A stretch of 43,630 nt of DNA from a virus. Positions 8,007-43,630 of the stretch are shown here, piece after piece (the stretch's first letter is position 1; each line of letters opens with the position of its first letter). Below the pieces are notes generated by a model. It ran no database searches. It saw only the letters and a list, made by a program, of their open reading frames with translations, and had not been told where the DNA came from. Made by a program: the position numbers and the translations under genes. The stretch covers positions 1 to 43,630 of the IMG/VR virus record IMGVR_UViG_3300025327_000059; one strand, written 5' to 3'.

Positions 8007-8530
8007 GCAATAAAGGTTTGTTTACTTATACGACAGAAATAGAGCCTCAAAAAACAATTGCGGAAATTCAAGAGGTTTTAGTCAGCCATGGCGCAAAATC
8101 AGTAATGACAAATTATACAGACGATGGCAGAATAGAGTCTTTATCTTTTATGATCGAGGTTGACGGGCAACCAAGAGGCATAAGGCTTCCTTGCGATCCT
8201 GTTCCCGTTTTAAAGGTTTTAGAAGGACAGGCAAGAGAGGGTAAAATTCCACGAAAATTTATAGGAGATGAACACCAAGCCTTGCGAGTTTCATGGCGAA
8301 TAGTACGTTACTGGGTTATGGCTCAAATGGCAATTCTAGAAACTCAAATGGTCAAAATGGAACAGATATTTTTGCCTTATATGGTAATGAGGGACGGCAA
8401 GACTCTATTTGAAAATATGGTTAAAACTGGTTTTAAATTACTTGGCGGGAAGATAGAAACAACAATCCAAAATCAGGCGCAAGAAGGAGAGGTCATGGAA
8501 TTGAAAGAGGTAGAAGATGACACTAAGTAA
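8003..8530 (+). CDS. Conserved phage protein of unknown function
   Basis: A 175-residue protein. The N-terminal half (TIAEIQEVLVSHGAKSVMTNYTDDGRIESLSFMIEVDG...IRLPCD) and the later VSWRIVRYWVMAQMAILETQM and QIFLPYMVM segments match a widespread uncharacterised phage/bacterial protein type. No enzyme motif is visible; the acidic tail is specific. ATGA overlaps on both sides. Confidence 0.7.
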   Translation: MSNKGLFTYTTEIEPQKTIAEIQEVLVSHGAKSVMTNYTDDGRIESLSFMIEVDGQPRGIRLPCDPVPVLKVLEGQAREGKIPRKFIGDEHQALRVSWRIVRYWVMAQMAILETQMVKMEQIFLPYMVMRDGKTLFENMVKTGFKLLGGKIETTIQNQAQEGEVMELKEVEDDTK

Positions 8531-8648
8531 ATGTTGCAAGGCGCCAGTTGAAGTTAGAGGGGGCGATGAGGGGACTAATCACTACCAATGCACAAAATGT
8601 GGTTGGGCTTGTGATGTTGGCGAATTTCAAGGGAAGGAGGAAGAATGA
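8517..8648 (+). CDS. Short zinc-ribbon protein
   Basis: A 43-residue protein with SKCCKAPVEV at the start and YQCTKCGWAC later, giving a CC...CxxC zinc ribbon. It overlaps the gene before by fourteen bases and the RRM gene by four. Its last codons contain the AAGGAGGAAG ribosome site of the RRM gene. Small zinc ribbons like this often bind nucleic acids. Confidence 0.65.
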   Translation: MTLSKCCKAPVEVRGGDEGTNHYQCTKCGWACDVGEFQGKEEE

Positions 8649-8893
8649 AATTATTTATAGGAAATCTGCCGTATGACATTGATGACAATGGGCTCGGAGC
8701 GATCTTCCAAAAGTTTGGAAATGTGATTAGCGCAGTAGTTGTCATGGATAGGAATACGAATAGGTCAAAAGGTTTCGGCTTTGTGGAACTTGAATCAGGT
8801 GGAGAGCAAGCAATAAAGGAAACAAATGAAACTCAAGTAGCTGGGAGAAAAATATACGTTTCGGAAGCGAGGCCAAAAAATGATCGAACCTAG
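8645..8893 (+). CDS. RNA-recognition motif (RRM) protein
   Basis: An 82-residue single RRM: RNP2 is KLFIGNLP (2-9) and RNP1 is RSKGFGFVEL (about 41-50), with the aromatic residues for RNA stacking present. It closely resembles bacterial one-domain RRM proteins, which bind single-stranded RNA. This is unusual cargo for a phage and suggests control of phage or host mRNA. It has a strong GGAAGGAGG site just upstream. Probably acquired from a bacterial host. Confidence 0.92.
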   Translation: MKLFIGNLPYDIDDNGLGAIFQKFGNVISAVVVMDRNTNRSKGFGFVELESGGEQAIKETNETQVAGRKIYVSEARPKNDRT

Positions 8894-9116
8894 ATTTGAA
8901 AAAAGACTCGGGTGGCCTGACACGCCTAAAAGATTACAGCAAAAAGAATGCTTTACCTATATTAGTGAAAAAGGGGTTGAGATAAACTATCACGATTTTA
9001 ACGATCGAACAGGGAAGTGCTTGAGATGTCCTTTGACAATTTCCAAAAAGATACTTGCTCAAGTAATTAAGAAAAAATTAGCAAGGGAGGCGATAAAAAA
9101 TGCTAGATCAAATTAA
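8880..9116 (+). CDS. Small basic protein with CxxC
   Basis: A 78-residue basic protein with KCLRCPLTI in the middle and a Lys-rich helical tail (AQVIKKKLAREAIKNARSN). Not recognised. It overlaps the RRM gene by fourteen bases and the next by seventeen. Its charge fits RNA or DNA binding. Confidence 0.6.
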   Translation: MIEPRFEKRLGWPDTPKRLQQKECFTYISEKGVEINYHDFNDRTGKCLRCPLTISKKILAQVIKKKLAREAIKNARSN

Positions 9117-9273
9117 CCTCGTCATTTCTCTAGGGACATTATTGCTGGTATTTGTGCTTTCAAGACGCTTTGAGAGCGTGTTTAAGGGGCTCGGTAAAAA
9201 GGAATTGGACTATATTTTACGCGGGCTACAGCAAAGATTAACGAAAGCGAGGAAACGGGAAAGGAGTAAATAA
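9100..9273 (+). CDS. Small membrane-anchored protein
   Basis: A 57-residue protein from ATG 9100, just behind GGGAGG. It has an N-terminal membrane segment (LVISLGTLLLVFVLSRRF) and a basic, helical cytoplasmic tail ending KARKRERSK. No family is recognised. Confidence 0.6.
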   Translation: MLDQINLVISLGTLLLVFVLSRRFESVFKGLGKKELDYILRGLQQRLTKARKRERSK

Positions 9274-9488
9274 CGAGATATAAAGCTGGCTGTACGGGGA
9301 AGATTCCGTATGGTACGGAAAAAGAAGCAAGAAATGTAATTAGGCGCTGGAAAGGCGGCAAGAAAAATTATCGGGTTTACCATTGTAAGCACGAAAATCA
9401 TTGGCACGTTAGTAGCGAAAGTAAGCACGTTCATAAGTTAATTAAAAAAGGACTCATGATTAAAAGAAAATTTTTTGAAGGGAGGTGA
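9270..9488 (+). CDS. Small protein apparently starting on ATA
   Basis: An open frame of 73 codons runs from directly after an in-frame TAA (9267-9269) to TGA at 9486-9488. It reads TRYKAGCTGKIPYGTEKEA, then VIRRWKGGKKNYRVYHCKH and ENHWHVSS, a pattern like small phage proteins with paired Cys and closing WH. There is no ATG, GTG or TTG before that core. The first codon is ATA, four bases behind AGGAG and overlapping the previous stop (AAATAA), so ATA or a nearby ATT is the probable start. A sequence error remains possible. Confidence 0.6.
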   Translation: MTRYKAGCTGKIPYGTEKEARNVIRRWKGGKKNYRVYHCKHENHWHVSSESKHVHKLIKKGLMIKRKFFEGR

Positions 9489-9491
9489 AAA

Positions 9492-10112
9492 ATGAAAGGC
9501 AATATATTAGTTAGTTTTTTAATAGGACTTTTTATAGTAGTAGGCGGTTTAGCTTTTGCAAAATCGGCACAGGCTTGGGGATTTAATATATGTGATATAT
9601 TCCCAAACTTGCCACAATGCCAAGAGCCAAGCCCATCACCTAGTCCCTCCCCTAGCCCCTCATCATCTCCGAGCCCAGAGCCAAGTCCCGAACCAAGCCC
9701 TGAGCCCTCTCTAACCCCTGAACCTCAAAGGGACGAAGCAAAGAGCGAGCCACAAGCTCCTCAATGCCCGAACGGCAATACTACGCAAGTGCCAGCGTGG
9801 GCTCATGTAAATAGAAGCGGAGAGCAAGCCATTGTTAACGCTTTTATTACAGAGGGTGATAATGTCCAAATTTATTGGAGCGTAGTAGGGCAACCGCATT
9901 GGCAACACTCAAGCGCAGGAACTAATCCTGACGGAGTCAAGCCAAACGCAGATAAATGGATCGACTATACGATTCACGAGCTTGATCCAAACTTGGGTTA
10001 TGACTTTGGAATCCAACAGCGCAACGGCTGTGGTGGTGGAGAAACCATAACCGCAGTAATTGTCGATGGTCCAGAAACTCAGGTTTTTGGAGTAACTTAT
10101 TACGAAAGGTAA
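9492..10112 (+). CDS. Secreted protein with Pro-Ser-Glu linker
   Basis: A 206-residue protein behind a consensus GGGAGGTG site. It has a signal peptide (about 1-28, ending SAQA-W), a short Cys pair, a low-complexity linker of PSPSP and PEPSPEPS units (about 45-75), then a beta-rich domain (about 95-206) with YWSVVGQPHWQHSS and LDPNLGYDFGIQQRNGC, resembling fibronectin III-like folds. Likely exported and displayed on the infected cell. Such linkers are typical of surface proteins of several bacterial groups. The function is unknown. Confidence 0.7.
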   Translation: MKGNILVSFLIGLFIVVGGLAFAKSAQAWGFNICDIFPNLPQCQEPSPSPSPSPSPSSSPSPEPSPEPSPEPSLTPEPQRDEAKSEPQAPQCPNGNTTQVPAWAHVNRSGEQAIVNAFITEGDNVQIYWSVVGQPHWQHSSAGTNPDGVKPNADKWIDYTIHELDPNLGYDFGIQQRNGCGGGETITAVIVDGPETQVFGVTYYER

Positions 10113-10191: not shown

Positions 10192-12192
10192 ATGATAAAG
10201 TACGAGCAACTCGCAGTTGAGTATTTAGAAAAACAGGAAAAGGTATACAAGCGATCAATCGGGCCGCTTCAACGCTTTTTGGTTCGAAATTTCGCTCAAC
10301 AGCTAGAAAAAACTCTCCCTGATGATCCTAACAAAGGGATTAGAAGTAAGCTAGGCCACATCAGAGGGAAGATTGCAAAAGTAGCATTTATTACAGAGGA
10401 CGTAGGACATCTCACAGGGGGCAGATATTACGCTTGGTTTATCGCTACTGCCCTTGTTGAATTAGGTTTTGACGTTACTGTTTACACTAACAAAGTTCCT
10501 GTTTTTCAAGATAACTTTAAACTTTATCAACAGCCAAAGATTGAAGTGGTTGTAAAAAACGCAAAAGAGCTTGAGACTTTTGATATTAAAGCCGATATTT
10601 ACATCGGTTCTCCAATTTCAGGAGATATTGCGGCGGCTCGATTGGCAGAAAAATACAACAAGCCTAGCTTTGCGATTATCTTTGACCCCTTTCCAATGAT
10701 GGAAAAGTATATCGGGCGAAGAACTTACGCTGGTTGGGGCGAGATTGTACCTCTTTTAAAAAAGACCGACATAAATATAATCACCTTGTGCAAATCAACC
10801 TCTGAGTATATTTACAATTGGCTCAATAAACGCAGAGATCAAGTGTTTGAAATTTATCCTTGTATAAATTCACGCGAAAAAGATCAAACAGAACAACAAC
10901 TACAGGAAGATTACGTTGTTTTTATCTCCCGTCTAGTCGGGCATAAAAGATTCCCACACGTCTTAGAGGCTTGCAGGGAGGCTGGTATTAAATTAAAGGT
11001 TATCGCAAGCATAGACGGATTAAAAACTGAGAAGATGATCGAGGAAGCAGGAATGACAGAGCAAGTTGAATTTTATCGAGGGATATCTGACAAAGAAAAA
11101 TTTGAGCTTATTGCAGGAAGTAAAGCAGTTATAAATGGGGCAATTTTTGAAGGCTTTGGGCTTTGGGCGGCAGAAGGCTTGGCTTGCGGAGTGCCTATTG
11201 TCTGTTACGAATATCCCACGTTTCGTGAGATAGAACAGATTGCACAAGCCAGTAATATGTATTTTGCAGAATGGGACAATCCAAAAGACCTTACCCTAAA
11301 ACTCAAGCAAGCGTTAAAAGAAAATAATAGAAACAATGGGACAAGAGCTTTTGATTTTGAGATACTTTCAGAGAGAGTAAAAAATGTTTTCTCTTTTGAA
11401 CCCCGCATTGGCATCATAACTATCGCCTTAAATGAAGAAAAATTTATCGGGGCTTCTTTGAGAGCAATTATCAAACACCCGAATGTTAAAAAGGTAGCGG
11501 TAGTCGAAGGAGCTGTTAATCTTTTTAATCATAGTGCAACGCCGCAAGGATTAAGTCTAGACAATACTGCTCAAGAAGTTTTAAAGGTAATTGAAGAAGA
11601 ACCCAATGGCAACAAAATTATTTACGATAGGTATGGGTGGGCTACTGATAAATCAGAACTTCGAAACCGAGCCTTAAATCTTATTAGTAAAAACCTCGAT
11701 TATATTCTAGTTGTTGATGCAGATGAGGTTTGGAAAAAAGAAGATTTAGACAAGCTCGTAGAGGGAATGAGAGAACACCCAGAGATTGGCGTTTTGCTTT
11801 TTAATCATCACCACTTTTGGAAGCGAAAAGATTTAGTAGCAATTGGCTCAAATTGGAACATTCACCTATTCCGTTGTTTTAAATTCCAAGATCCAACTCT
11901 CCATTGGGATAGACACGAAATGCCAGTCGTTGATTTTCAGGGTAGATACATAAATAAAACAGACGGCTTTTTAGTCTTAAGTGATGTTTATGTTTATCAT
12001 TACGGCTATCTTAAAAGCGACAAAGAAGTGCAAAATAAAATCGAGTACTATCGAAAAAGAGATCGGCATTTACAAGTTAAGGATACTTTTACTAATTGGA
12101 AAAAAGGCGATCCTACTTCAACAACTCATGGGGGAGGGGAGGCAATACCTTTTGAGGGAACTCACCCGTCAGAAATGGAAGGAATTATATGA
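10192..12192 (+). CDS. Two-domain glycosyltransferase (GT4-like plus GT2-like)
   Basis: A 666-residue protein. Residues about 60-400 form a GT-B enzyme: GHLTGGRYYAWFIATAL near the donor cleft, VVFISRLVGHKRFPHVLEA, and the GAIFEGFGLWAAEGLACGVP signature of GT4. Residues about 403-620 form a GT-A enzyme starting RIGIITIALNEEKFI, with the metal-binding DADEVW at about 508-513. Fusions like this add two sugars in turn. No membrane segment is seen, so it acts in the cytoplasm. It heads a glycan block with three methyltransferases. Targets could be host surface glycan, phage proteins or modified DNA; the sequence does not decide. Confidence 0.88.
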   Translation: MIKYEQLAVEYLEKQEKVYKRSIGPLQRFLVRNFAQQLEKTLPDDPNKGIRSKLGHIRGKIAKVAFITEDVGHLTGGRYYAWFIATALVELGFDVTVYTNKVPVFQDNFKLYQQPKIEVVVKNAKELETFDIKADIYIGSPISGDIAAARLAEKYNKPSFAIIFDPFPMMEKYIGRRTYAGWGEIVPLLKKTDINIITLCKSTSEYIYNWLNKRRDQVFEIYPCINSREKDQTEQQLQEDYVVFISRLVGHKRFPHVLEACREAGIKLKVIASIDGLKTEKMIEEAGMTEQVEFYRGISDKEKFELIAGSKAVINGAIFEGFGLWAAEGLACGVPIVCYEYPTFREIEQIAQASNMYFAEWDNPKDLTLKLKQALKENNRNNGTRAFDFEILSERVKNVFSFEPRIGIITIALNEEKFIGASLRAIIKHPNVKKVAVVEGAVNLFNHSATPQGLSLDNTAQEVLKVIEEEPNGNKIIYDRYGWATDKSELRNRALNLISKNLDYILVVDADEVWKKEDLDKLVEGMREHPEIGVLLFNHHHFWKRKDLVAIGSNWNIHLFRCFKFQDPTLHWDRHEMPVVDFQGRYINKTDGFLVLSDVYVYHYGYLKSDKEVQNKIEYYRKRDRHLQVKDTFTNWKKGDPTSTTHGGGEAIPFEGTHPSEMEGII

Positions 12193-12707
12193 AGACTAAA
12201 CTTAATATAGGAAGTGGGGCGAGACCAATGAATAAAATTGACAACGAATGGCTTGATTTAGACGTACGCAAAGAGATCAAGTTAGAAAATGCCGTTTATA
12301 CTCCTGATTTTGTGAACGAAGCAGATATGATTCCCGTTGAAGATAATACCTTTGAGGAAGTTTTAGCCCATAGCGTCCTTGAGCATATTAGCAAATGGGA
12401 CTATCCACGCTTCCTGAAAGAGTGGTACCGCATTTTACAAGTCGGAGGCAGGATAAGAATTAGCGTACCTGATATGTATTTAGTCGCCAAAGATTTAATT
12501 CGAGCAGTACAAAGTAAAAATCAACAGGCAATAAAAGGCACAATTAACCTTATTTATGGAGAACAAAATTACTCAGAGAATGTTCATCGCTGGGGCTGGA
12601 CTGAGGAAAGCCTGTCAGAAGCGTTAAAAGGAGTTGGCTTTCATAATATAAAGCGGTTGAAGGGCTCACGTTATAACTCGGAACTTTTTATCGAGGCGGT
12701 TAAATGA
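12189..12707 (+). CDS. SAM-dependent methyltransferase (type 11)
   Basis: A 172-residue protein with a class I fold: LNIGSGARP (motif I), WLDLDV, AHSVLEHISKWD and LKEWYRILQVGGRIRISVPD. Small enzymes of this type occur in polysaccharide clusters. It overlaps the glycosyltransferase gene by four bases, so the substrate is probably a sugar made by that enzyme. A tRNA or protein target is not excluded. Confidence 0.85.
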   Translation: MKTKLNIGSGARPMNKIDNEWLDLDVRKEIKLENAVYTPDFVNEADMIPVEDNTFEEVLAHSVLEHISKWDYPRFLKEWYRILQVGGRIRISVPDMYLVAKDLIRAVQSKNQQAIKGTINLIYGEQNYSENVHRWGWTEESLSEALKGVGFHNIKRLKGSRYNSELFIEAVK

Positions 12708-12793
12708 ACAGAAAAGAAAGACGCAAAAGAGTTAAAAAATTCAATCACAAGCCACATCGGGGTTTTACTAAAAGCAATAAACCAAAAAGATGA
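12704..12793 (+). CDS. Very short basic peptide
   Basis: A 29-residue peptide, more than a third Lys/Arg (MNRKERRKRVKKFNHKPHRG). It overlaps the genes on both sides by ATGA. The coupling supports translation, but its size makes it uncertain. It could bind nucleic acid or simply couple translation. Confidence 0.45.
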   Translation: MNRKERRKRVKKFNHKPHRGFTKSNKPKR

Positions 12794-13368
12794 AATACTA
12801 CTCTCAATTTGGTGAAGACAAATGGCTTATGGAAAATATAATCTTGCCGCCAAAAGGCATTTTTGTTGATGTAGGGGCAGGTGATCCTCAAGCTCTAAGC
12901 AATTCTAAGTTGTTTGAAGATTTAGGCTGGGAGGTTTATTGCATAGAGGGAGATGAGAGGCGAATTAAGACTCTAAAAGCCCAAAGGAAAAACGTGATTC
13001 AAGCTGTTATTTCCGACAAAGAAAAGAAAGCTCTATTTAATTTAGATCCTGCCCCTGATTTAAGTAGTCTCACAAACAGAAAAACAAGCAGGACAGTTGA
13101 AATAAAGACCCGCAGACTCGATAAATTATTTTTGGATATAGGAATTTGGGAGATAGATATTTTAAGCGTGGACGTAGAAGGTTACGAGATACAGGCTTTA
13201 AAGTCTTTGGGAATGTATAAGCCTGAAATTATAATTGTTGAATTTTTAACCTATAAAAAAGACCCAATTGACCGAGAGATTAAGGAATACCTAAGTGACT
13301 ATAATCAAGTCCACAAGACACTTTCAAATTTAATCTTTGTTTTACAGAGAGGAAAATATGTACACTAA
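12790..13368 (+). CDS. FkbM family methyltransferase
   Basis: A 192-residue FkbM-type class I methyltransferase: YSQFGEDKWLMEN at the start, GIFVDVGAGDPQALSNSK (motif I), YCIEGDERRIKTL, and the later LSVDVEGYEIQALKS signature. FkbM enzymes O-methylate sugars or polyketides. It sits in the glycan block behind the glycosyltransferase. It overlaps the next gene by eleven bases. Confidence 0.88.
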   Translation: MKYYSQFGEDKWLMENIILPPKGIFVDVGAGDPQALSNSKLFEDLGWEVYCIEGDERRIKTLKAQRKNVIQAVISDKEKKALFNLDPAPDLSSLTNRKTSRTVEIKTRRLDKLFLDIGIWEIDILSVDVEGYEIQALKSLGMYKPEIIIVEFLTYKKDPIDREIKEYLSDYNQVHKTLSNLIFVLQRGKYVH

Positions 13369-13930
13369 AGACTTTTTTGGAGCAAATGGTACAAATTGGA
13401 TAATCTGGCTAGGAGAGCTTGCTCAAAAGCCTAATCTAAATTTCTTAGAGATTGGTTGCTTTGAGGGAAAGGCGACAGTCTGGCTCTTAGGGCATATTTT
13501 AACCGAGCCTACTTCCCGCATTACCGTAATCGATACATTTAAAGGAAGCCGCGAGCATAAGATTCAAAAGCTAGATGTTTCGACAATGTATCAAAACTTT
13601 TTAAAAAACACAGCAGAATTTAAAGATAAAATTACAATCCACGTAGGCTCCTCCCAAAAGATTCTAAGGACATTTTTAGTCGGGCAGTTTGATTTTATAT
13701 ACATAGACGGCTCGCACCAAGCACCAGATGTACTTGAAGACACTTTGCTTGCTTGGAGATTGTTAAAAAAGGGCGGCATTTTAATTTGGGACGATTATGA
13801 TTGGGGTGAACAATACCAAGAGAGAGAAAAACCAAAAGTTGCTATTGATGCATTCCTTTATATTTTTGAAGGTAAATACAAAATAATCTCCTCGCACAGA
13901 CAAATTTGCGTTACTAAATTAGAGTTATAA
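13358..13930 (+). CDS. Class I SAM methyltransferase (Methyltransf_24-like)
   Basis: A 190-residue protein. ATG 13358 is chosen over a frame extending to 13337 because AGAGAGG lies just upstream. Motifs: NFLEIGCFEGKATVWLL (motif I), ITVIDTFKGS, FDFIYIDGSHQAPDVLED and LLKKGGILIWDDYDW. This type is often found with glycosyltransferases. It is the third methyltransferase in the block, and the last gene before a short gene and a terminator. Confidence 0.85.
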   Translation: MYTKDFFGANGTNWIIWLGELAQKPNLNFLEIGCFEGKATVWLLGHILTEPTSRITVIDTFKGSREHKIQKLDVSTMYQNFLKNTAEFKDKITIHVGSSQKILRTFLVGQFDFIYIDGSHQAPDVLEDTLLAWRLLKKGGILIWDDYDWGEQYQEREKPKVAIDAFLYIFEGKYKIISSHRQICVTKLEL

Positions 13931-20222: not shown

Positions 20223-21917
20223 ATGGCACGTATATTTTCATCGGGCTTTGAACTTCAATCGGTAACCGCTGGTGTTGAATGGGATTCAGGAACAGCAGTC
20301 GGGACAATTGACACTTCTGTTAAAAGAAGCGGCGCGGCTTCTTTGCTTTTTAATCTTACTAGCGCAGGGAATGGTCGTGTCGCACACAAAGTTGTTAGTG
20401 CTGTTACGGGAAACAAATTACTTGCAAGATTTGCCGTAAGAATTGCAACTGCTCCTGCCGCTAATACCGATATTGCCTCTTGGTTTGACAATGATACTGA
20501 TTGGTCTGCTTTCATCAGACTTAATACAGACAGGACTTTATCTTTAGTCAATTACAACGGAACTGTAATTGGTACTTCTTCGGCTTTAGAATTAGACGCT
20601 TGGTACATAGTTGAATTTGCTCACCAAAACGGAGCAACTGATCTTCTTGAAGCCAGACTTGCTCCCGATGACGGAACAACACCTTCAGTTTTTGCCACTA
20701 CTTCAACTAATCCGGGCATCAATGTTGATACTTTTATAATAGGTATTTCTTGGATTGCGGCAAATACCACAGGCAAACTTTACTTTGACGATGTAGCAGT
20801 CAACGACACTTCTGGAGCGGCTCAAACGAGTTATCCAAGCGTTGGTTCAATTGTCCATATGCAACCTGACTCGGCAGGGGATTTTAACGAAACGTCAGGT
20901 GACTATACGAGCGTTGATGAGGTAACTCCCGATAATGCGACTACAATTGCGGTTTTTGATGTTAATAACGATAGGCTTGATGTAAATTGTGAAACTTCTG
21001 CCAATGCAGGAATTGGGGCCGCCGATACTATTACTTTGGTTCAAGTTGGTTATCGGGCGGCAGGAGTAAATGCTAATGCTAGGTCGGGGAAGTTAAGAAT
21101 AAAATCTCAGGCAAGCGGAACGATGCTTGAGAGTGCGACTACAGCAGTTTCATCGTCAGCCTATCAAACCAACGCCCCCACGCCATTCGTTTATAAATTA
21201 ACCTCTTATACCGACCCACAAGCAGGTGGGGCTTGGACACCTACTCTTTTGAACTCAATGCAAATTGGTTTTCAGGCAATTGATGCCGCTCCTGACATAA
21301 ATCTTTCTACTTTATGGGCATTGGTTGAGTATGTACCAACACTATCAGTAGAGACTAATTCCGAAAGAAACGCTAAGATAACTGGAAAAACAACTGCAAA
21401 TTCAGAGCGTTCGTCAAAATTAACTGGAAAAGCTACCTCAAATGCTGAACGGGCGGCTAAACTCACAGGGGTAGCCACGACAAGCTCTGAAAGAGCAGGG
21501 AGGCTAACTGGTTCAGTTGGTGTTGAAGTTAATTCAGAGCGTTCCTCAAAAACTATTGGTACAGCAACCTCAAACGCAGAAAGAGCCGCAAGGCTTACAG
21601 GGGTCGAGGGTTCTAATTCCGAACGAAGCGCAAAAATTCTTGGAACAGCCACTACAGAATCTGAACGCCCTGCAAAAATTACTGGTTCGCAAACCACAAA
21701 CAGCGAAAGGGCAGGAAAATTAACTGGTAAGACGACTGCTAATTCTGAACGCCTAGCGAAGATTACAGGGGAACTAACCTCAAGTTCCGAGAGAAGCCCT
21801 AAGATTTATGGCGGTTACGAGTTTTCAGTTAACGACCATTTTGACGATACGGCTAACAAAGACGCAGGAGCAACAACAGCAAAATGGGAAGGAGACGGGG
21901 AGATAACCCTGCAATAA
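20223..21917 (+). CDS. Surface protein with eleven 14-residue SER-x-x-K-x-x-G repeats
   Basis: A 564-residue protein. Residues about 1-205 look like a lectin/LamG-type beta sandwich (FSSGFELQSVTAG, AWYIVEFAHQNGATDLLEARL, KLYFDDVAVNDTSGA). Residues about 205-375 form a second beta domain. Then eleven copies of a unit like NSERSAKITGKxTA follow, one spaced by GVEV. Likely a tail or head fibre that binds host surface. Codons for the same residues vary between copies. The next gene carries the same repeat. Confidence 0.7.
   Translation: MARIFSSGFELQSVTAGVEWDSGTAVGTIDTSVKRSGAASLLFNLTSAGNGRVAHKVVSAVTGNKLLARFAVRIATAPAANTDIASWFDNDTDWSAFIRLNTDRTLSLVNYNGTVIGTSSALELDAWYIVEFAHQNGATDLLEARLAPDDGTTPSVFATTSTNPGINVDTFIIGISWIAANTTGKLYFDDVAVNDTSGAAQTSYPSVGSIVHMQPDSAGDFNETSGDYTSVDEVTPDNATTIAVFDVNNDRLDVNCETSANAGIGAADTITLVQVGYRAAGVNANARSGKLRIKSQASGTMLESATTAVSSSAYQTNAPTPFVYKLTSYTDPQAGGAWTPTLLNSMQIGFQAIDAAPDINLSTLWALVEYVPTLSVETNSERNAKITGKTTANSERSSKLTGKATSNAERAAKLTGVATTSSERAGRLTGSVGVEVNSERSSKTIGTATSNAERAARLTGVEGSNSERSAKILGTATTESERPAKITGSQTTNSERAGKLTGKTTANSERLAKITGELTSSSERSPKIYGGYEFSVNDHFDDTANKDAGATTAKWEGDGEITLQ
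21351..21812 (+). repeat. Eleven tandem 42-base coding repeats
   Basis: Eleven in-frame units of 14 codons (consensus N/S-SER-x-A-K-I/L-T-G-x-x-T) separated in one place by a four-residue insertion. DNA identity between units is well below protein identity because synonymous codons are shuffled. Confidence 0.9.
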
Positions 21918-21918
21918 A

Positions 21919-24576
21919 ATGGCAGTAACAGATTGGAAGTTTCCTACAAGTACATTTTCTAATTCAGGCGTAGTTAACCCAGACAATGCTTGGGCTTCAG
22001 ACGATGCTCACGCAAACCTTGATACAGTAACCGATCAGGTGATTTATGGCAATTTCGGAGACTTTGGACTCCCTGCAGGGGCAGTTATTCAGGGAATTGA
22101 AGTTGAAGTTGAAGGAAAAATTACAGGAGAAGGAATCAACCACTCTGCTGATGTCTATGTGAGAATCGGCGGCGTTCTTTATTCAGGAACAAACGGAACA
22201 TGGGATCCAGATACAACTACAGACGATGTCCAAACTCTAGGAGGGGCAACTAACCTTTGGGGTGCTAGTAGTGCCGCTGTCTCTGATTTCGCAGACGGTA
22301 CTTTTAGGGTTCGTTTCACAATGACCGCCCTAAGCGTAACCTCGCTGGATTTAGACGCCTTTAAAGTAAGAGTTTACTATACCGAACCAGTAGATACTAA
22401 CTCCGAACGCCCTGCCAAAATAACTGGCAAGTCAACTTTAAACTCACAACGAAGCGCAAGAATGACAGGAGGATACTCGCAACAGGTTGCGGTTTCAATT
22501 GCTCTTGCAACTCCTGATGGTCCAATTACTGATGCTATTCTTTGGGCAAGAGAAGACAAACCCTCTGATACAGACATCACTTATTACTTATCAGCAGACG
22601 GAGGCAGTAATTGGGAAGAAGTTACGCTTGATACTCCTCATGCCTTTGTAGATCAAGGGCAAGACCTCCGTTGGAAAGCAGTTTTAGACCCTAGCTCAGA
22701 TAAATTAGAAAAGCCCACAGTTAAAGACATTATCATTTCCTATGCAGTTGGTGCTATTCCTGCTAATTCCGAAAGAGCGGCAAAAATAACTGGAACTCAG
22801 ACAACCTCAAGTGAAAGAGCCTCTAAAATCACAGGACAAGAAACTTCAAATGCCGAAAGGAGTGCAAGGTTAACTGGAACTGCCCAAGCTAACAGCGAGC
22901 GCAACGCCAAAATAACAGGTACAGATACAGCGAGCTCAGAGAGAGCCGCTAAAATTACTGGAAAACAAACAGCTTCTAGCGAGAGATCAGCAAAAATAAT
23001 TGGTACTGATACTTCCTCCTCAGAACGAAGTGCCAAAATAACAGGCAAGTTAACAACTAACAGCGAACGGAATGCAAAAATAACAGGGAAAGAAACCGCC
23101 TCAAGTGAGAGATTAGCAAAATTAACAGGACAAGCTCAGGCAAATTCAGAGAGGAGTGCGAGGCTAACAGGCACAGCAACCGCAAATTCTGAAAGACAAG
23201 CCAAAATTACAGGGCAGGAAAGCACGTCTAACGAGCGAAATGCTAAGTTAACGGGTAAAGACTCAGCTAATTCTGAAAGGTCTGCAACTCTTACAGGGCA
23301 AATCATAGATGAGCGTTCCGCGAAATTAACAGGGCAAGCTCTCACATCTTCTGAAAGGGACGCAAAACTAACAGGTAAAAATACGGCTTCAAGCGAGCGA
23401 GATACTAAAGTTACAGGAACTTTAGGGGCTAATTCGGAAAGAGCCGCGAAAATAGTAGGGCAAGCCCTCACAAACAATGAACGATCTGCAAAGATAGTCG
23501 GCACAGACACTTCTAGCTCTGAACGTTCGGCTAAAATTACAGGTCAACAAACAGCAGACAGCGAAAGAGCGGGTAAGATTACTGGAAAGGCAACCGCACA
23601 AGACGAAAGAAATGCAAAAGTTGTCGGTAAATTAACAACTGATTCCGAGAGGTCTGCGAAATTAACTGGAAAAGATCAAGCCTCTGATGAAAGAGCCGCA
23701 ACACTTGAGGGCTTTATACCTACCTTATCTGAAAGGTCAGCAAAAATAGATGGAATAACAACTGCTTCATCTGAGAGAGCCGCGACCTTAAACGGGACAA
23801 CCCATGTAATTTCCCAGCGTAGTGCGAAAATAGTCGGGCAGGAATTAACAGATGACGAACGGGCCGCTAAATTAACTGGTACAGCTTTAACAAGCAACGA
23901 GAGAAACGTAAAAATAGTAGGAAAGCAAACTGATTCCTCTGAAAGAAACGCAAAACTCACAGGAAAAGACTCTGCAACTTCCGAGAGGAATGCCAAAATT
24001 ACAGGGCAAGACTCCGCAACCTCTGAGAGAAACGCAAAAGTAACAGGGCAACAATTAACCGCAGACGAACGAAGTGCAAAGATAATTGGGAAACAATCTG
24101 CCAGCAACGAAAGAGATGCGAAATTAACTGGAACTTTAACAGATCAAGCCGAAAGGTCAGCAAGGATTGTTGGTAAAGATACTGCCGCAAGTGAGCGGGA
24201 CGTTAAGATCACAGGGTCAGCGGAAGCAAACAGCGAAAGAGAAGCAACTCTGCAAGGGCAAGCCTTAACATCTAGCGAGAGAAGCGCAAAGGTTACTGGA
24301 TATTTAACAACTCAAAGCGAGAGAGACGTAAAGATAACAGGTAAATTTTCTGCAAATAGCGAAAGAGGTGGAAGGCTTAAAGGTATCAGAACCAAAAGAA
24401 AAAGTATTTATGTTTCTCCGCGAAACTTAAAGGGGTCGGTATCTGTTGCCGCAATAAAGACAAATGTTTCAATGAGGTTTATTAGGAAATTTGAAAATGT
24501 AACAATTAGAAATTTGTCAGCCCGCTATATTGCTTTTAGGAATAAAGGAATCACAGTTGTTGCAAATAAGTTGTAG
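21919..24576 (+). CDS. Large surface protein with about forty 14-residue repeats
   Basis: An 885-residue protein. The N-terminal domain (about 1-155) is beta-rich (TDWKFPTSTFSNSGVVNP, SADVYVRIGGVLY). Two repeat units follow at about 157-180, then a second domain (190-275) with TYYLSADGGSNWEEVTL, then 39 consecutive units (about 282-820) of SSERSAKITGKxTA type. The tail is basic (IRTKRKSIYVSPRNLKG). The repeat array could form an extended stalk. Probably a receptor-binding or fibre protein, but no known fibre family is recognised. It starts one base after the previous stop without a ribosome site. Confidence 0.7.
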   Translation: MAVTDWKFPTSTFSNSGVVNPDNAWASDDAHANLDTVTDQVIYGNFGDFGLPAGAVIQGIEVEVEGKITGEGINHSADVYVRIGGVLYSGTNGTWDPDTTTDDVQTLGGATNLWGASSAAVSDFADGTFRVRFTMTALSVTSLDLDAFKVRVYYTEPVDTNSERPAKITGKSTLNSQRSARMTGGYSQQVAVSIALATPDGPITDAILWAREDKPSDTDITYYLSADGGSNWEEVTLDTPHAFVDQGQDLRWKAVLDPSSDKLEKPTVKDIIISYAVGAIPANSERAAKITGTQTTSSERASKITGQETSNAERSARLTGTAQANSERNAKITGTDTASSERAAKITGKQTASSERSAKIIGTDTSSSERSAKITGKLTTNSERNAKITGKETASSERLAKLTGQAQANSERSARLTGTATANSERQAKITGQESTSNERNAKLTGKDSANSERSATLTGQIIDERSAKLTGQALTSSERDAKLTGKNTASSERDTKVTGTLGANSERAAKIVGQALTNNERSAKIVGTDTSSSERSAKITGQQTADSERAGKITGKATAQDERNAKVVGKLTTDSERSAKLTGKDQASDERAATLEGFIPTLSERSAKIDGITTASSERAATLNGTTHVISQRSAKIVGQELTDDERAAKLTGTALTSNERNVKIVGKQTDSSERNAKLTGKDSATSERNAKITGQDSATSERNAKVTGQQLTADERSAKIIGKQSASNERDAKLTGTLTDQAERSARIVGKDTAASERDVKITGSAEANSEREATLQGQALTSSERSAKVTGYLTTQSERDVKITGKFSANSERGGRLKGIRTKRKSIYVSPRNLKGSVSVAAIKTNVSMRFIRKFENVTIRNLSARYIAFRNKGITVVANKL
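22762..24382 (+). repeat. Thirty-nine tandem 42-base coding repeats
   Basis: Thirty-nine in-frame units, nearly all exactly 14 codons, each with (S/D/A)ER, a Lys or Arg at unit position 8 and Gly at position 11. One unit is shortened (GQIIDERSAKL). Serine is written with TCN and AGY codons and arginine with CGN and AGR in irregular alternation. Confidence 0.92.
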
Positions 24577-38565: not shown

Positions 38566-38593
38566 GCCCCGACTAACACTCGGGGCTTTTATT
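38566..38593 (+). terminator. Terminator between converging genes
   Basis: GCCCCGA (38566-38572) pairs with TCGGGGC (38580-38586), then TTTTATTT. A good intrinsic terminator on the plus strand; on the minus strand the following sequence is not U-rich. Confidence 0.85.
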
Positions 38594-39197
38594 TGCCCGC
38601 AAGATAATCTCCCGCAATAAGTTCAAGGGCTCGCCCCTCGCTCATTGTTTCGTCTCCTTCTTGGGCTTTGCTGATTGCTTGTTTAATTATTTCGTATTGC
38701 TCGGCTGTTACTTTTATTACAGTCATTCCATCTTCAAGGTTGCCCGCATTGTCTTTTACGTCTTCCCAATTAAAATTAGCCATCTCAACGTAATTTTTAA
38801 TCATCTCATCTTTGTAGGGCAGGGCTAGGTCTTTGAAGTCATTGACCATTTTTTTAATCAAATGGGCTAGTTTTATTTCGTTAAAAGGAACCTGTTGCTC
38901 GAAGTCAATTGTAGTTTCCATTGCTTCCTGATCAGAAATTTCACCTAGGTTATAAACGATGATATTTTTCCAGTCTAATTCTTTACAGGCAGTCCAGCGT
39001 TGTTCCCCGTCCACGATTTCATACCTGTCGCCTTTTGTGCGCACTACTACAGGCAGTTTAAGACCTTTTTTGGTTATGATACCCTTGATCGTTTCAAACT
39101 GCTCTGTGTTTTTATCTTTTGGGTTCCAGCTATTAGGGTCTAAAAGATTGATGTCAACTATTGATATAAATTTAGGATCGAATTTTAATTGTTCCAT
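38589..39197 (-). CDS. ParB-like nuclease-domain protein
   Basis: A 202-residue protein. Residues about 15-100 are a ParB/Srx-like domain with NSWNPKDKN, LKLPVVVRTKGDRYEIVDGEQRW (VDGEQRW at 62-68) and AMETTIDFEQQVPF. The C-terminal part is helical. Such domains bind or cut DNA, or hydrolyse nucleotides. Last gene of the deazaguanine operon, four bases after the zinc-ribbon gene. ParB-like proteins are frequent neighbours of phage DNA-modification genes; the role may be in choosing or handling modified DNA, which is inference. Confidence 0.8.
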   Translation of the reverse strand: MEQLKFDPKFISIVDINLLDPNSWNPKDKNTEQFETIKGIITKKGLKLPVVVRTKGDRYEIVDGEQRWTACKELDWKNIIVYNLGEISDQEAMETTIDFEQQVPFNEIKLAHLIKKMVNDFKDLALPYKDEMIKNYVEMANFNWEDVKDNAGNLEDGMTVIKVTAEQYEIIKQAISKAQEGDETMSEGRALELIAGDYLAGK

Positions 39198-39200
39198 AGG

Positions 39201-39356
39201 TTAGTTTTTGCCATGTTTGTGATTCATATTTTTGCCGCAAAGACATTTTTTTAACAATTTCAATTTACCACACTTTTTGCAAAGCCTTGCTGTTACAATC
39301 CAATCAATGCGCCTACTGAGTTTCCATTTATGACCAAAAATCCAAAAGCAGATCAT
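39201..39356 (-). CDS. Short zinc-ribbon protein beside dpdA
   Basis: A 51-residue protein from ATG 39356, overlapping the dpdA stop (ATGA). It has CKKCGK and CLCGKN knuckles, then HKH, and a GHKWKLSRR opening, as in small prophage zinc ribbons. Its tight coupling to dpdA hints at a functional link, but this is inference. Confidence 0.65.
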   Translation of the reverse strand: MICFWIFGHKWKLSRRIDWIVTARLCKKCGKLKLLKKCLCGKNMNHKHGKN

Positions 39357-40240
39357 GTTTTGTAAACAACTCCTCTAGCTTCCCACACTTGAGTAAAATA
39401 TCTTTCCATCTCTTTGTAGGCTTCAACTGCTATTTCCATTCGCTTAACCCTGCCTACTGCTAAATTTTTGTCATGGACTTGAGCTAAATCTTTTACTTTT
39501 TTACTGAGCGAATACAAATTGTTATTCTCGTTGTTCAGTTTTATTGTACCAAGTCGCTTGCCGTCAAATGCGAGAGTAGTTGCGTATTGCATTCCTGCTT
39601 TCCAACTTGTCGCGTCCGTTGAGTAAAAAGGATACTTCATTAACGCTTCACGTTTGCAAAAAGCGAACCCATGAACTTTTATGCCCTGCTCGTAGGCAGG
39701 TTTAATAAGGCTGTTGTAAGGCAAGCGGGGTCGCTTAGGCCTGTCGCCCTCAAGAGCAACATATTTACTTTGGGAGTCTTTTAACATTTCCAAATAATCC
39801 TCAAAGGTTTGGACTTCTGGGTGATAAACAGTAATGCACTTTTGATATAAGCCAGCCTGTTTTAATTCTTCCCGCCACTCCATCACTTTATCTTGCCCTG
39901 CAATTTCGCCTATATCAAGTTCAACAAAATAATCAAATAGGTTATTCCATTTTTTGAGCCAAGCCAAAAAATTCTCCCAGTAAACTTGCGGGGCTTCTTC
40001 TGTAATTGTCTTTTTGACGTGAACAGATACAGACAAGCCTTGTCCTTGAAGCTCGGAAAAGAAGCTGTGAGCGCCGCTGTCAACAATGATCTCTTTTATA
40101 TGGGGCCTGCCAGCCATTAAAGTATAGGGCTCTCTTTTTTTGCGCAGATAGTAATAGGAGTAAAAAGCCCGCTCGATCACATCTGTTTTAACTACCTCAA
40201 GTGTTTCGCTTGATTCCATTCCTGCTAGGAAGATTTTCAT
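39353..40240 (-). CDS. dpdA: DpdA: DNA guanine transglycosylase
   Basis: A 295-residue TIM-barrel enzyme related to tRNA-guanine transglycosylase. VDSGAHSFF holds the first catalytic Asp54; FVELDIG holds Asp109; HGFAFCKREALMKYPFYSTD is followed by ATSW, the phage DpdA signature around Asp209. DpdA swaps guanine in DNA for a 7-deazaguanine base. It is shorter than bacterial TGT and lacks its CxCxxC zinc site. Four-base overlaps on both sides within the deazaguanine operon. The subfamily (DpdA2, DpdA3 or other) cannot be settled by eye. Confidence 0.88.
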   Translation of the reverse strand: MKIFLAGMESSETLEVVKTDVIERAFYSYYYLRKKREPYTLMAGRPHIKEIIVDSGAHSFFSELQGQGLSVSVHVKKTITEEAPQVYWENFLAWLKKWNNLFDYFVELDIGEIAGQDKVMEWREELKQAGLYQKCITVYHPEVQTFEDYLEMLKDSQSKYVALEGDRPKRPRLPYNSLIKPAYEQGIKVHGFAFCKREALMKYPFYSTDATSWKAGMQYATTLAFDGKRLGTIKLNNENNNLYSLSKKVKDLAQVHDKNLAVGRVKRMEIAVEAYKEMERYFTQVWEARGVVYKT

Positions 40241-41223
40241 AGAAACCTCTCAAGTATATCAATCGCCTTGCTAAGGTTGTCGTTGTGTTTAACTGTTAAA
40301 GCGTGGACGTAATTTGTATTATTCCGCATAAAGTATCTCACTTTTTCTACTGCATCTGGGAAAACATTGTAGCGGTACATACTAGGAAAGAACTCTCGGT
40401 AAGATAAATCATTCGGCACTACTGGGATACAACCTAGCGTGACTGCTTCAATGACTCCAAAACCAAAATTCTCTTGAAGCGCCGCGGAAAATACAACTTT
40501 ACTTCTGGCAAGCAATTTATAGTAATCTTTTTTAGATAACTTTTGTTCCATTGTTTTAATATACTGGTACTCAGGCAATTTTTCTTTTAACTTGTCAAAG
40601 AGCCAAGGTTGTTTTTCATCATCAAGTCTGCCTGTAAAAACGACAATATCTTCTTTCCTTTTTTTGCCTTTAAATGCGAAACTCCGCACATAATTGTAAT
40701 CAAAAGGCATTCCAGTAACGTGAATCCTGTTAAAGTATTTAGGCACTTTTTTCTCTATTAGTTCAGACTTTGCAAAGGTACTACCAACAAAAACAAAATC
40801 TAACATCTTAAACCAACCAATCTCAATATCCCTAACCCACCCTTCTAATTCCCGCACAAAATCTGTTTCTGTGAAGCTCCCAGCGTGGCAATAACCGCCT
40901 ACCTTTACGCTTAAATTATTAAAGAGCGCCATGTATTTTATTGCTTCAATACCTGGGAACCAAATATCAGAGAAGAAAAAAACGTCTCCGTTGTGAACTA
41001 CCTTTTGTTGAAAAAGCTGTGCAATAGTAGCCAATTGGCTAAATTTAAAGTGAGAAGTGCTATTAGCGTCCAGAAACGCCCCTGTTTCTATCTCTTGGGT
41101 TAAAGGGACTCCTTTGATTCTTTCGTGAGGCAAAGACCTTTTTTTGAGTTCTGTATCAATTAAGCGGTCCATATCTACTGTGTACCGCTTATCTAAATGC
41201 TCAAGGGGAACGTAAAAAATCAT
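40237..41223 (-). CDS. GT-B glycosyltransferase within the deazaguanine operon
   Basis: A 328-residue protein. The N-terminal domain (1-165) holds VFFFSDIWFPGIEAIKYMALF and VGGYCHAGSFTETDF; the C-terminal domain opens with IVVFTGRLDDEKQPWLFDKL and carries the GT4-type donor site ALQENFGFGVIEAVTLGCIPVVP (about 248-270). No signal peptide or membrane segment, so it is cytoplasmic. It overlaps dpdA and the QueD-like gene by four bases each, so it is made with the base-modification enzymes. It could glycosylate the modified base or DNA; it could also act on glycans. Substrate not known. Confidence 0.82.
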   Translation of the reverse strand: MIFYVPLEHLDKRYTVDMDRLIDTELKKRSLPHERIKGVPLTQEIETGAFLDANSTSHFKFSQLATIAQLFQQKVVHNGDVFFFSDIWFPGIEAIKYMALFNNLSVKVGGYCHAGSFTETDFVRELEGWVRDIEIGWFKMLDFVFVGSTFAKSELIEKKVPKYFNRIHVTGMPFDYNYVRSFAFKGKKRKEDIVVFTGRLDDEKQPWLFDKLKEKLPEYQYIKTMEQKLSKKDYYKLLARSKVVFSAALQENFGFGVIEAVTLGCIPVVPNDLSYREFFPSMYRYNVFPDAVEKVRYFMRNNTNYVHALTVKHNDNLSKAIDILERFL

Positions 41224-41546
41224 TCAATCATTGCTCCGTTCTCGTTATCTTCAAAGACTGATACTTTTATTTTGCGGTCATAAGTAATCTCTAGGTTTGC
41301 TTTTAAGCATTCTGCCATCATTTCGCAACTCATTTCGCTAGTCAAATCAATTACGTTATTCCAAAGTTCACCACATTCGTCTCTAAAAAGGTGAAATTCA
41401 ATGTCCCTATTATCGTGAAATTGCTCAATCCAAACCTCCACAAAAAAAACATGCCTGTGCAGAGAAGCTAGATATTTTACTCCTTCTGGCGCATTAACGA
41501 ATTTGTGCCAACCTATTTTTTGAAACCTGACTATTGACCAGATCAT
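41220..41546 (-). CDS. QueD-like T-fold protein without the catalytic cysteine (DpdL candidate)
   Basis: A 108-residue protein of the 6-pyruvoyl-tetrahydropterin synthase fold. The zinc histidines are kept (GWHKF His14; LHRHVF His30 and His32), and SCEMMAECLK near the end corresponds to the NPTAE part of QueD. The Cys four residues before LHGH in QueD is Leu26 here, so QueD chemistry is not expected. A decarboxylase turning carboxydeazaguanine into deazaguanine, named DpdL, has been proposed in phages; I recall it as a QueD relative, and this gene is a candidate. It lies between folE and the glycosyltransferase. Confidence 0.7.
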   Translation of the reverse strand: MIWSIVRFQKIGWHKFVNAPEGVKYLASLHRHVFFVEVWIEQFHDNRDIEFHLFRDECGELWNNVIDLTSEMSCEMMAECLKANLEITYDRKIKVSVFEDNENGAMIE

Positions 41547-42415
41547 ATTAAATTAAGATATTCACTCCTTGCTTTGTCGTCTGATTTAATCCTCCCTAAC
41601 AATTTATCTGTGACTAACTCGCTCTGTTGTTTATTAACGCCTCTAGCGATCATACAAAAATGGCGGGCAGTTATTCTCACGCCTACACCTTTTGGTTTTA
41701 AGACTGAATTTAAAGTGTTGGCAATCTGCTCTGTTAATTGTTCTTGAATTTGAAGTCTGCGGGAGTATATCTCAACAAGCCTCGCTATTTTTGAAATGCC
41801 GACTACTCGCCCGTTTGGGATATACCCTACTGATACTTTGCCAAAAAAAGGGAGGATATGATGCTCGCAAAAAGAATAGAACTCAATATCTCTTAGCACA
41901 ACCATCTGGTCAAAAGTAGAATCAAAAGTAGTCTCAAGTATTTTTTCTGGTGATTGCCTGTAGCCAGCGAATAAGGTATTTGTATATGCTTGCTCGACTC
42001 TTGTCGGCGTATCGCGAAGCCCATCTCTGTTTGGGTCTTCCCCTATAAATTCTAAGATTCTGGTTATGTTATCTTTAATGCCTTCTGTTTTACTTTCCCA
42101 AGGATAAACAATCCAATTTTTTGTCTGGTCAACGTAAAAAGTAGGTCTGATTTTTGCTGTTGGCTTTAAATGTAGGACTCCAGTTTTCCAATCTTCAAAA
42201 GCCGATAGGGTTTCTCCTGAATCGCAAATATCATCAACAATCAAAGTATTTTGTTCAGGAGAATCGACGAGGGGCAAGCCCATGATATTTGACAGTTCAA
42301 GCGCAACATAGGAACCGCCCCGAGGGATACCATAAATTGATTCTGCGCCAACGGCTTGTTTGGCAAGTTCGCGACAAAGTTTTTGAAATTCATTCCACGT
42401 TAGCTTTTGCTTCAT
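41543..42415 (-). CDS. folE: Phosphoribosyltransferase - GTP cyclohydrolase I fusion
   Basis: A 290-residue protein. Residues 1-108 are a PRTase-like domain: IYGIPRGGSYVALEL, then the PRPP-binding TLIVDDICDSGET (57-69), and a closing WIVYPWE. Residues 110-290 are GTP cyclohydrolase I: EDPNRDGLRDTPTRV, the zinc ligands Cys183 and His186 in FCEHHILPF and Cys254 in ARHFCMIARG, with VGISKIARLVEIYSRRLQIQEQLT. FolE opens GTP to dihydroneopterin triphosphate, the first step of deazaguanine synthesis. The PRTase part may salvage guanine or handle a free modified base; its substrate is unknown. Confidence 0.93.
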   Translation of the reverse strand: MKQKLTWNEFQKLCRELAKQAVGAESIYGIPRGGSYVALELSNIMGLPLVDSPEQNTLIVDDICDSGETLSAFEDWKTGVLHLKPTAKIRPTFYVDQTKNWIVYPWESKTEGIKDNITRILEFIGEDPNRDGLRDTPTRVEQAYTNTLFAGYRQSPEKILETTFDSTFDQMVVLRDIEFYSFCEHHILPFFGKVSVGYIPNGRVVGISKIARLVEIYSRRLQIQEQLTEQIANTLNSVLKPKGVGVRITARHFCMIARGVNKQQSELVTDKLLGRIKSDDKARSEYLNLI

Positions 42416-42572
42416 CGGATTGGTAGGTATTTTTTTCGTCAGTTAAGACAAAATACTGGATTTGATCATTGACTGTCAGCAATTTAACTTTAGCAACTCT
42501 TATGCCTAAATTGTCATAATTTAATAAAGCATCATTTAATTGTCCGAGGGTAACAAATTTATGTAAGGTCAT
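42390..42572 (-). CDS. Small operon protein, unknown
   Basis: A 60-residue protein: LHKFVTLGQLNDALLNYDNLGIRVAKVKLLTVNDQIQYFVLTDE, a helix followed by beta strands. Not recognised. It overlaps queE by four bases and folE by 26, so it is part of the operon. No metal or catalytic motif visible. Confidence 0.6.
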   Translation of the reverse strand: MTLHKFVTLGQLNDALLNYDNLGIRVAKVKLLTVNDQIQYFVLTDEKNTYQSDEAKANVE

Positions 42573-43444
42573 ACTCTGCGCCTAGCTCCCCAAAGCTCAA
42601 CATGGAGTCTTGAGAGAAGTCTGTAGCCTTTTTGTTTAGCATATTCAGCGACATTTTGAGCATTTTTAATAACTTCTTCGCCTGTTACCCCTTGAGGCAT
42701 TAAGATTACTTGAGAGGGTTCTATCCCGCAACCTTTGATATAATCTTCCTTGATCTCGTCTAAATCGTTATTCGCCATTACAACGAACTTAAATACTGTA
42801 TCTGCCCCCCGCAACGCCTCGATAACAGGTTTTCTTATCCGCATAGCCCTTTGGTTACCTGAATTGATTAGCTTAGGTGAGCAGTTAAACTGCACACTCT
42901 TAAGAAGTTTCTCTGTAGGCATTATGGTTCCGTTTGTTTCGATCTCTATTTTGTACTCTGGGAGTAAGTCGATTAAATCGTCTATGCGGTCTTTTTGAAG
43001 TAAAGGCTCGCCCCCTGTTATAACTAGCCTCTTTTGGATTGAGTCGTCTTCACAAGCCCACGCCTTTTTTACATTTTCTGCGGTTTGCTCAACTGTCCAG
43101 TCGCTTGATTCTGTCCAAAACTCTTTTGATTTAGGATTCCAAGTGTACCAAGAATCACACCAAACACAAGCAAGGTTGCAGATTTGAAGCCTTAAAAAGA
43201 CAGTCGGCCTTCCCATTGTCGGGCCTTCCCCTTGCAAAGTATAAAAGACTCCGTCGCCTGAGATTTTAAAACAGCCCTCTTTTATTTTTAATTTATCTGG
43301 ATTTTTTAATTCGGCGGGTACTTCATCGTCAGCAACATCAAAGGCACGTTTAAGTTCAGGGTCAAAATTCTCCATCATGCCCTCGCCTAAAAAGTCGATC
43401 ACTTCTTTTTTGCTAACTCTGCGTGGGTCTATTTCTTCGTTCAT
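42569..43444 (-). CDS. queE: QueE: 7-carboxy-7-deazaguanine synthase
   Basis: A 291-residue radical SAM enzyme. Cys89, Cys93 and Cys96 (QICNLACVWCD) bind the 4Fe-4S cluster; GEGPTMGRPTVFLRLQ precedes them and VITGGEPLLQ follows (142-150). It makes the 7-deazaguanine ring from carboxytetrahydropterin. The N-terminal ~55 residues (acidic, helical) are an extension not common in bacterial QueE. The ATG overlaps the queD stop (ATGA). Confidence 0.95.
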   Translation of the reverse strand: MNEEIDPRRVSKKEVIDFLGEGMMENFDPELKRAFDVADDEVPAELKNPDKLKIKEGCFKISGDGVFYTLQGEGPTMGRPTVFLRLQICNLACVWCDSWYTWNPKSKEFWTESSDWTVEQTAENVKKAWACEDDSIQKRLVITGGEPLLQKDRIDDLIDLLPEYKIEIETNGTIMPTEKLLKSVQFNCSPKLINSGNQRAMRIRKPVIEALRGADTVFKFVVMANNDLDEIKEDYIKGCGIEPSQVILMPQGVTGEEVIKNAQNVAEYAKQKGYRLLSRLHVELWGARRRV

Positions 43445-43630
43445 AAATCATCTATGGAAACTTCTGCGGTTGTATTTTCAGTTTCTTGGAGGATTATTTT
43501 ATAGTAACGGGGATCCACTTTTGACAAAAACGCAAGGGTTTCTAATGCAAGAATTTCGGCTGTTGGATTTTCAAAATTATCATTAAGGTATTTATGGTCT
43601 AAAGTCCTAATAATAAGTGTATTTACATCT
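43441..43630 (-). CDS. queD: QueD, C-terminal half (gene begins at positions 159-1)
   Basis: The minus strand from 43629 reads about 62 codons to TGA 43441: TLIIRTLDHKYLND carries the catalytic Asp-His, and NPTAEILALETLAFL the conserved Glu of QueD. It ends VSIDDL and overlaps queE by four bases. It fits the N-terminal half at 159..1 with correct spacing between motifs if one base at the junction is removed. See the entry at position 1. Confidence 0.9.
   Translation of the reverse strand, partial: DVNTLIIRTLDHKYLNDNFENPTAEILALETLAFLSKVDPRYYKIILQETENTTAEVSIDDL

Follow-up and report, generated by a model that had tools for sequence, protein, structure and literature searches.

We identified a glycosyltransferase gene (GT) within a phage operon for 7-deazaguanine synthesis and DNA insertion, and propose that it encodes a retaining-type GT4 enzyme of a pathway by which phage DNA acquires a 7-deazaguanine bearing a sugar. 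We give this reading a probability of roughly 0.64, on evidence that consists of gene content, gene coupling, conservation, active-site motifs, fold and the absence of QueC. In the proposed pathway, FolE, QueD and QueE would make 7-carboxy-7-deazaguanine, and a small QueD-fold protein (c1), replacing QueC, would process the C7 carboxylate, perhaps by decarboxylation. DpdA would place the 7-deazaguanine into DNA, and the GT would move a hexose from a nucleotide sugar onto it, either in DNA or just before insertion. The donor would probably be UDP-glucose or UDP-galactose in phages with galE and a sugar nucleotide of the GDP-mannose type in phages with a mannose-phosphate isomerase, and would come from host pools in the phage analyzed here.

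Operon layout and the glycosyltransferase

The stretch of DNA analyzed (the window) spans an entire IMG/VR virus record, which is linear and 43,630 bases long, and no near-identical DNA was found among phage records. The minus strand carries a tightly coupled operon close to the end of the window, listed here in the order of transcription and followed by a ParB-like gene.

43441..43629, minus strand: QueD (6-carboxytetrahydropterin synthase), partial, leaving the contig end (PF01242, E 7.7e-5, 23.1 bits against a cut-off of 22.4)
42569..43444, minus strand: QueE, 7-carboxy-7-deazaguanine synthase, a radical SAM protein (phrog_2076, E 1.2e-57; TIGR03963/TIGR03365, E ~1e-23)
42390..42572, minus strand: 60-aa open reading frame coupled to QueE (weak match to phrog_17851)
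41543..42415, minus strand: phosphoribosyltransferase (PRT) domain fused to GTP cyclohydrolase I (FolE) (PF01227, E 1.4e-71; PF00156, E 1.7e-6)
41220..41546, minus strand: QueD-fold protein c1, 108 aa (phrog_17812, E 2.3e-18)
40237..41223, minus strand: GT4-type (GT-B) glycosyltransferase, 328 aa (Glycos_transf_1, E 4.6e-6)
39353..40240, minus strand: DpdA-type DNA-guanine transglycosylase (phrog_887, E 3.1e-27; motifs D54SGA and STD209ATSW)
38589..39197, minus strand: ParB-like protein, downstream of dpdA (PF02195, E 2.5e-12)

Exactly as an earlier note on this DNA had claimed, the GT reading frame overlaps its QueD-like neighbor (c1) and dpdA by four bases each, with ATGA at both junctions; ATGA is also found at the operon junctions 41543, 42569 and 43441, five in all. 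DpdA enzymes swap guanine in DNA for 7-deazaguanine, and the identity of dpdA given in that note is confirmed by the phrog_887 match and by membership of the TGT-type sequence family with both Asp motifs (D54SGA and S-x-D209) present. Unlike in the window, PRT and FolE are separate genes in many related loci. PRT genes occur in 47 of 88 related loci, standing alone near FolE outside the window, and it may be speculated that the PRT recycles the guanine freed by DpdA. A ParB-like gene close to dpdA is also seen in two or more other groups of related loci.

The description of the GT as a GT-B glycosyltransferase also holds. Its sequence narrowly passes the Pfam cut-off for Glycos_transf_1 (26.7 bits vs. 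26.4), and PDB searches by sequence alone gave merely weak glycosyltransferase matches. The AlphaFold2 model (pLDDT 86.8, pTM 0.87) shows a GT-B fold with PglA, BshA and MshA as top PDB folds (E ~1e-9 to 1e-8). BshA and PglA matched the model at E ~1e-9 with TM 0.62-0.68, and the tetrahydrobiopterin glucosyltransferase structures 5ze7 and 5zer matched it more weakly (E ~4e-7, TM 0.53). Residues noted in the GT are H113, R199, K204 and the two glutamates of an EX7E motif (E251 and E259), the active site typical of GT4. The EX7E motif is kept in all 37 viral homologues, and R199, K204, E251 and E259 are invariant in the alignment, R199 and K204 corresponding to the R/K phosphate-binding pair of GT4. 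Judged by these residues, the GT looks like a catalytically intact GT4 enzyme.

Two other regions of the window were noted. A second GT4-type protein, apparently fused to a GT2-like domain, is encoded at 10192-12192 and followed by methyltransferase-like genes (12189-13930), the whole (10192-13930) being a separate glycan locus of the phage. The region 20223-24576 encodes two large proteins, probably of the tail or fibre, in which a degenerate SERxAKITGK repeat occurs dozens of times.

Linkage across phages and sugar-supply genes

A profile search of IMG/VR with the GT yielded 502 or more relatives, and the best 80 were kept. Among 88 GT loci examined, c1 was present in 86, DpdA in 82, FolE in 71 and QueE in 70. 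c1 lies within 2.5 kb of the GT in 86 of the 88 loci, the remaining two of which start at the GT and are cut by the contig edge, and within 500 nt in 75 of the 86. Dereplication at 80% GT identity left 41 loci, with c1 in 40, DpdA in 39, FolE in 34 and QueE in 33, and in this set the association of the GT with c1 and DpdA is far beyond chance. The first five annotated GenBank neighborhoods of GT relatives (Acidovorax phage ACP17, Pseudomonas phage Paride of the PA5oct group, Sinorhizobium phage Phosso, Xanthomonas phage X1 and Synechococcus phage BUCT-ZZ01) all contain 7-deazaguanine clusters. The family is essentially confined to viruses: plasmids gave zero matches, and 84,980 species genomes of bacteria and archaea yielded the GT on one contig, where its neighbors (c1-GT-QueD-QueE-FolE) are accompanied by phage-like genes. 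These counts, together with the recurrent nucleotide-sugar genes described below, strongly support the earlier proposal that the GT is locked into a 7-deazaguanine DNA-modification operon. To judge from gene content, many phages that build a modified guanine probably attach sugars to that base.

A search seeded by c1 alone, blind to the GT, led to 79 loci; 47 of them have the GT, and no such GT was present in the available DNA of the other 32. c1 without the GT was also found in GenBank phages, e.g. Rhizobium phage RHph_I1_18 and Cellulophaga phage phiST. Since c1 occurs without it, the GT appears to be an add-on, an optional step downstream of c1 and not part of the core. One GT family pairs with four DpdA sequence groups, which indicates that the GT tracks the product and not a single transglycosylase lineage.

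Genes for sugar supply repeatedly adjoin the GT. A galE-type gene was identified near it in 23 loci, in 22 of them between an overlap of 70 nt and a distance of 10 nt. Two representatives scored 304.8 and 314.8 bits with TIGR01179 (curated cut-off 262.3), and the Paride copy is truncated and gives a weak match. Twelve loci have a cupin of the mannose-phosphate isomerase type (PF01050, with 1.1e-38 for one representative), which in all 12 ends at the start of the GT, at most 9 nt away, and in one locus (L011) a nucleotidyltransferase of the CTP_transf_like family follows the GT. On the GT tree, labels change at least three times for galE and at least twice for the isomerase, and the sugar-supply genes have thus been gained or lost beside the GT more than once. 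In the window, a galE-type, isomerase or other sugar-supply gene adjoining the GT is absent. The adjoining galE and isomerase genes are the strongest sequence evidence that the GT uses a nucleotide-activated sugar, the transfer itself being predicted.

More distant relatives of the GT, at 25% identity, are found in Xanthomonas phages PhiXhv-12, PhiXhv-15 and PhiXhv-16 and in Erwinia phage Ep032. In PhiXhv-12 the distant GT adjoins a deacetylase of the PIG-L type and a Gat-QueC, which matches PF06508 at 2.3e-49 and also has a glutamine amidotransferase domain; this genome also encodes FolE, QueD and QueE, the last of which reads with one stop codon. The statement that the GT never occurs without c1 was dropped for the superfamily as a whole: it is true of near relatives, and the PhiXhv-12 relative has Gat-QueC instead. 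In the PhiXhv-12 locus (L099), Gat-QueC, the deacetylase, the distant GT and a GFO_IDH_MocA oxidoreductase form one run (5729-9812) with a GNAT gene upstream, a possible case, by analogy, of BshA/BshB-like decoration of an archaeosine-type base. Because this archaeosine-type cluster has a BshA-like GT beside a deacetylase of the BshB/MshB type, GTs linked to deazaguanines seem to extend beyond the c1 group.

The QueD-fold protein c1 and the absence of QueC

The earlier note called c1 QueD-like, which is right with regard to fold and does not extend to family or active site. The structure model of c1 (pLDDT 95.3) matches Escherichia coli QueD in Foldseek (E 1.4e-5, TM 0.81), but c1 has no Pfam PTPS match, and in the alignment with QueD the catalytic Cys is replaced by Leu and the Asp-His loop is missing. 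c1 keeps the zinc-binding His triad H14/H30/H32 (invariant), E99, H44/R47/E50 and S73-C74-E75, and E99 is likely the ring-binding Glu. An ordinary QueD function for c1 is ruled out by the separate QueD genes, which in the window means the true QueD at 43441-43629, together with the missing catalytic Cys and Asp-His loop.

None of 40 GT-bearing records contained QueC over the cut-off, in a search for which the preQ0 phage CAjan served as positive control (1.7e-76). Five complete GT-bearing phages, all without QueC, encode FolE, QueD and QueE. These three enzymes produce 7-carboxy-7-deazaguanine, and because they are present and QueC is absent, the pathway appears to end at this compound. From the sequences, we infer that c1 may take the place of QueC, binding the 7-deazaguanine ring and altering its C7 carboxylate; perhaps it decarboxylates 7-carboxy-7-deazaguanine. 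A phage protein named DpdL has reportedly been proposed as a 7-carboxy-7-deazaguanine decarboxylase leading to 2'-deoxy-7-deazaguanine, in a study not known to include a glycosyltransferase, and c1 may be DpdL.

Since these phages lack QueC, it is chemically puzzling which group would accept the sugar. Removal of the carboxylate by c1 would leave C7 with no obvious oxygen or nitrogen for attachment, and a C-glycoside or another site on the base would be needed; if c1 does not decarboxylate, an acyl-linked sugar would be possible. A specific version of the pathway, in which c1 decarboxylates 7-carboxy-7-deazaguanine and the GT joins the hexose carbon to carbon at the bare nucleophilic C7 to give a C-glycosylated 7-deazaguanine in DNA, we consider rather unlikely. 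If true, jumbo phages and many phages from the environment would have a DNA base whose sugar cannot be hydrolysed off.

Several further genes were observed in c1 clusters. In most c1 loci without the GT, a TGT-like gene of 280-317 aa directly follows c1 (L139, 751-1626, and equivalents). It has a motif like IMDNSAFEF, no Pfam match and weak PHROG matches, and, assigned by motif only, probably represents a DpdA group that has yet to be described. In about 23 of the 32 c1 loci without the GT, a phrog_1574 protein weakly similar to Anp1 lies nearby; we suspect a common myovirus gene and do not claim it as an alternative GT. A GDP-mannose 4,6-dehydratase is encoded in two c1 clusters without a GT4 gene (L110, 2643-3629, PF16363 at 3.9e-122; L112, 2610-3596) and is followed in both by a phrog_1574-type protein weakly like the mannosyltransferase Anp1. 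Deoxynucleoside monophosphate kinase genes were found shortly downstream of c1 in Aeromonas phage Ahp1 and Vibrio phage D479, which have no GT (L031, 10298-10867; L032, 10543-11088). In addition, two small proteins are conserved in the clusters: c12 (L002, 11154-11663; 21 loci), located between FolE and QueE and without a clear Pfam match, and c21 (L002, 5467-5943; 17 loci), located after DpdA of the c10 group.

Alternative acceptors and known systems

What counts against a sugar-bearing base in DNA is that GT4 enzymes also glycosylate small molecules, as do BshA, MshA and the tetrahydrobiopterin glucosyltransferase; a pterin or a free base might thus be the acceptor. According to the main rival explanation, the GT is a pterin glucosyltransferase whose substrate comes from FolE and the proteins of the PTPS fold and is glycosylated as a diverted or stored intermediate, so that the sugar never enters DNA. 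Consistent with this are the GT4 fold, the matches to 5ze7 and 5zer and the closeness of a PTPS-fold gene, which is coupled to the GT in the window and lies no more than 500 nt from it in 75 of 86 loci. However, the BshA and PglA folds are closer, the constant partners QueE and DpdA are left unexplained, and a biopterin-pathway reductase was not seen in the cluster. In addition, c1 occurs without the GT in 32 of 79 loci and thus does not exist to feed it, and we regard a pterin acceptor as improbable. We hold a similarly low opinion of a different order of steps leading to the same class of product, in which the GT acts first, on the free base or nucleotide, and DpdA inserts the finished glycosylated base. 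Eukaryotic TGT inserts queuine, and the GT4 relatives BshA and MshA use small acceptors, but each of four DpdA sequence groups would have to accept a bulky base. The net charge of the GT, usually negative (median -12.5), might also seem to favor this order; as a test of DNA binding it proved uninformative, since the charge is likewise negative for T4 AGT (-5) and for the DpdA_c10 group (-17).

Phages carry many glycosyltransferases for host surface, virion protein or lipid, and with the gene at 10192-12192 and its methyltransferase-like neighbors the window has another one; on this view the GT would be a passenger that is in the operon by chance. Against this stand its linkage to c1 (40 of 41 dereplicated loci) and DpdA (39 of 41) across very different phages, the lack of a surface-glycan cluster around it and the confinement of the family to viruses, which make a passenger very unlikely. 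The constant proximity to c1 and DpdA would also be expected if the protein were an inactive GT-like subunit that serves the modification complex structurally or as a regulator, but this is hard to reconcile with an EX7E motif kept in 37 of 37 homologues, invariant R199 and K204, and galE and isomerase genes that repeatedly adjoin the GT, and we give it hardly any weight. The preferred reading is a GT4 enzyme that would add a hexose to a 7-deazaguanine either before or after this base has entered phage DNA.

Phages are known to exchange bases for 7-deazaguanines and to glucosylate hydroxymethylated pyrimidines, and in the open literature we found no report that joins deazaguanine exchange with glycosylation. 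The earlier note knew of no glycosylated 7-deazaguanine described in DNA, which agrees with our full-text search across 5.39 million open papers, and novelty is provisional to the extent of that coverage. If the preferred reading is true, sugar-coated purines would occur in many environmental phages and in the cultured Pseudomonas jumbo phages PA5oct and Paride, ACP17 and Xanthomonas phage X1. This would matter for how phages resist restriction enzymes and CRISPR nucleases, for bias in sequencing and for the reason why these phages drop QueC, and the cultured carriers make the question open to mass spectrometry now.

The DpdA system described by Hutinet et al. (2019; PMC6884629) likewise comprises FolE, QueD, QueE and DpdA on the phage genome, with post-replicative base exchange inferred. 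The present loci differ from it in being without QueC and in having an extra QueD-fold protein and a glycosyltransferase, a word absent from that paper; QueA, QueG and QueH were not found in phages (PMC6884629). The deazaguanine system of PA5oct was noted, without a GT, by Iyer et al. (2021; PMC7824862). Phage 7-deazaguanine pathways of the preQ0/G+ type have QueC, in contrast to the 40 GT-bearing records.

Comparison with the T4 alpha- and beta-glucosyltransferases and with the queuosine mannosyltransferase had been suggested, and neither fits as a relative, the nearest folds being BshA, PglA and MshA. The T4 enzymes are also phage GT-B enzymes that glucosylate a modified DNA base, which is 5-hydroxymethylcytosine and differs from the present case. 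The GT had no Pfam or PHROG match to their families at E up to 0.1, and they are not among its 50 best PDB fold matches. BshA, MshA and PglA, although the nearest solved folds, share 10-14% identity with the GT, and their acceptors are malate, inositol phosphate or a lipid-linked sugar. The cyanobacterial UDP-glucose:tetrahydrobiopterin alpha-glucosyltransferase is a GT4 enzyme whose acceptor, a bicyclic ring derived from GTP, is chemically related to the proposed substrate and receives the sugar at the pterin side-chain hydroxyl; the enzyme is not linked to DpdA, whereas the context of the present GT is QueE and DpdA. With the queuosine mannosyltransferase (QTMAN) family the GT shared no NCBIfam match and no Pfam match, the Pfam hits being just general glycosyltransferase families plus RXYLT1/exostosin below the cut-off. 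The animal tRNA-queuosine mannosyl- and galactosyltransferases likewise place a sugar on a 7-deazaguanine in nucleic acid, but attach it to the cyclopentenediol of queuosine, which phages do not make.
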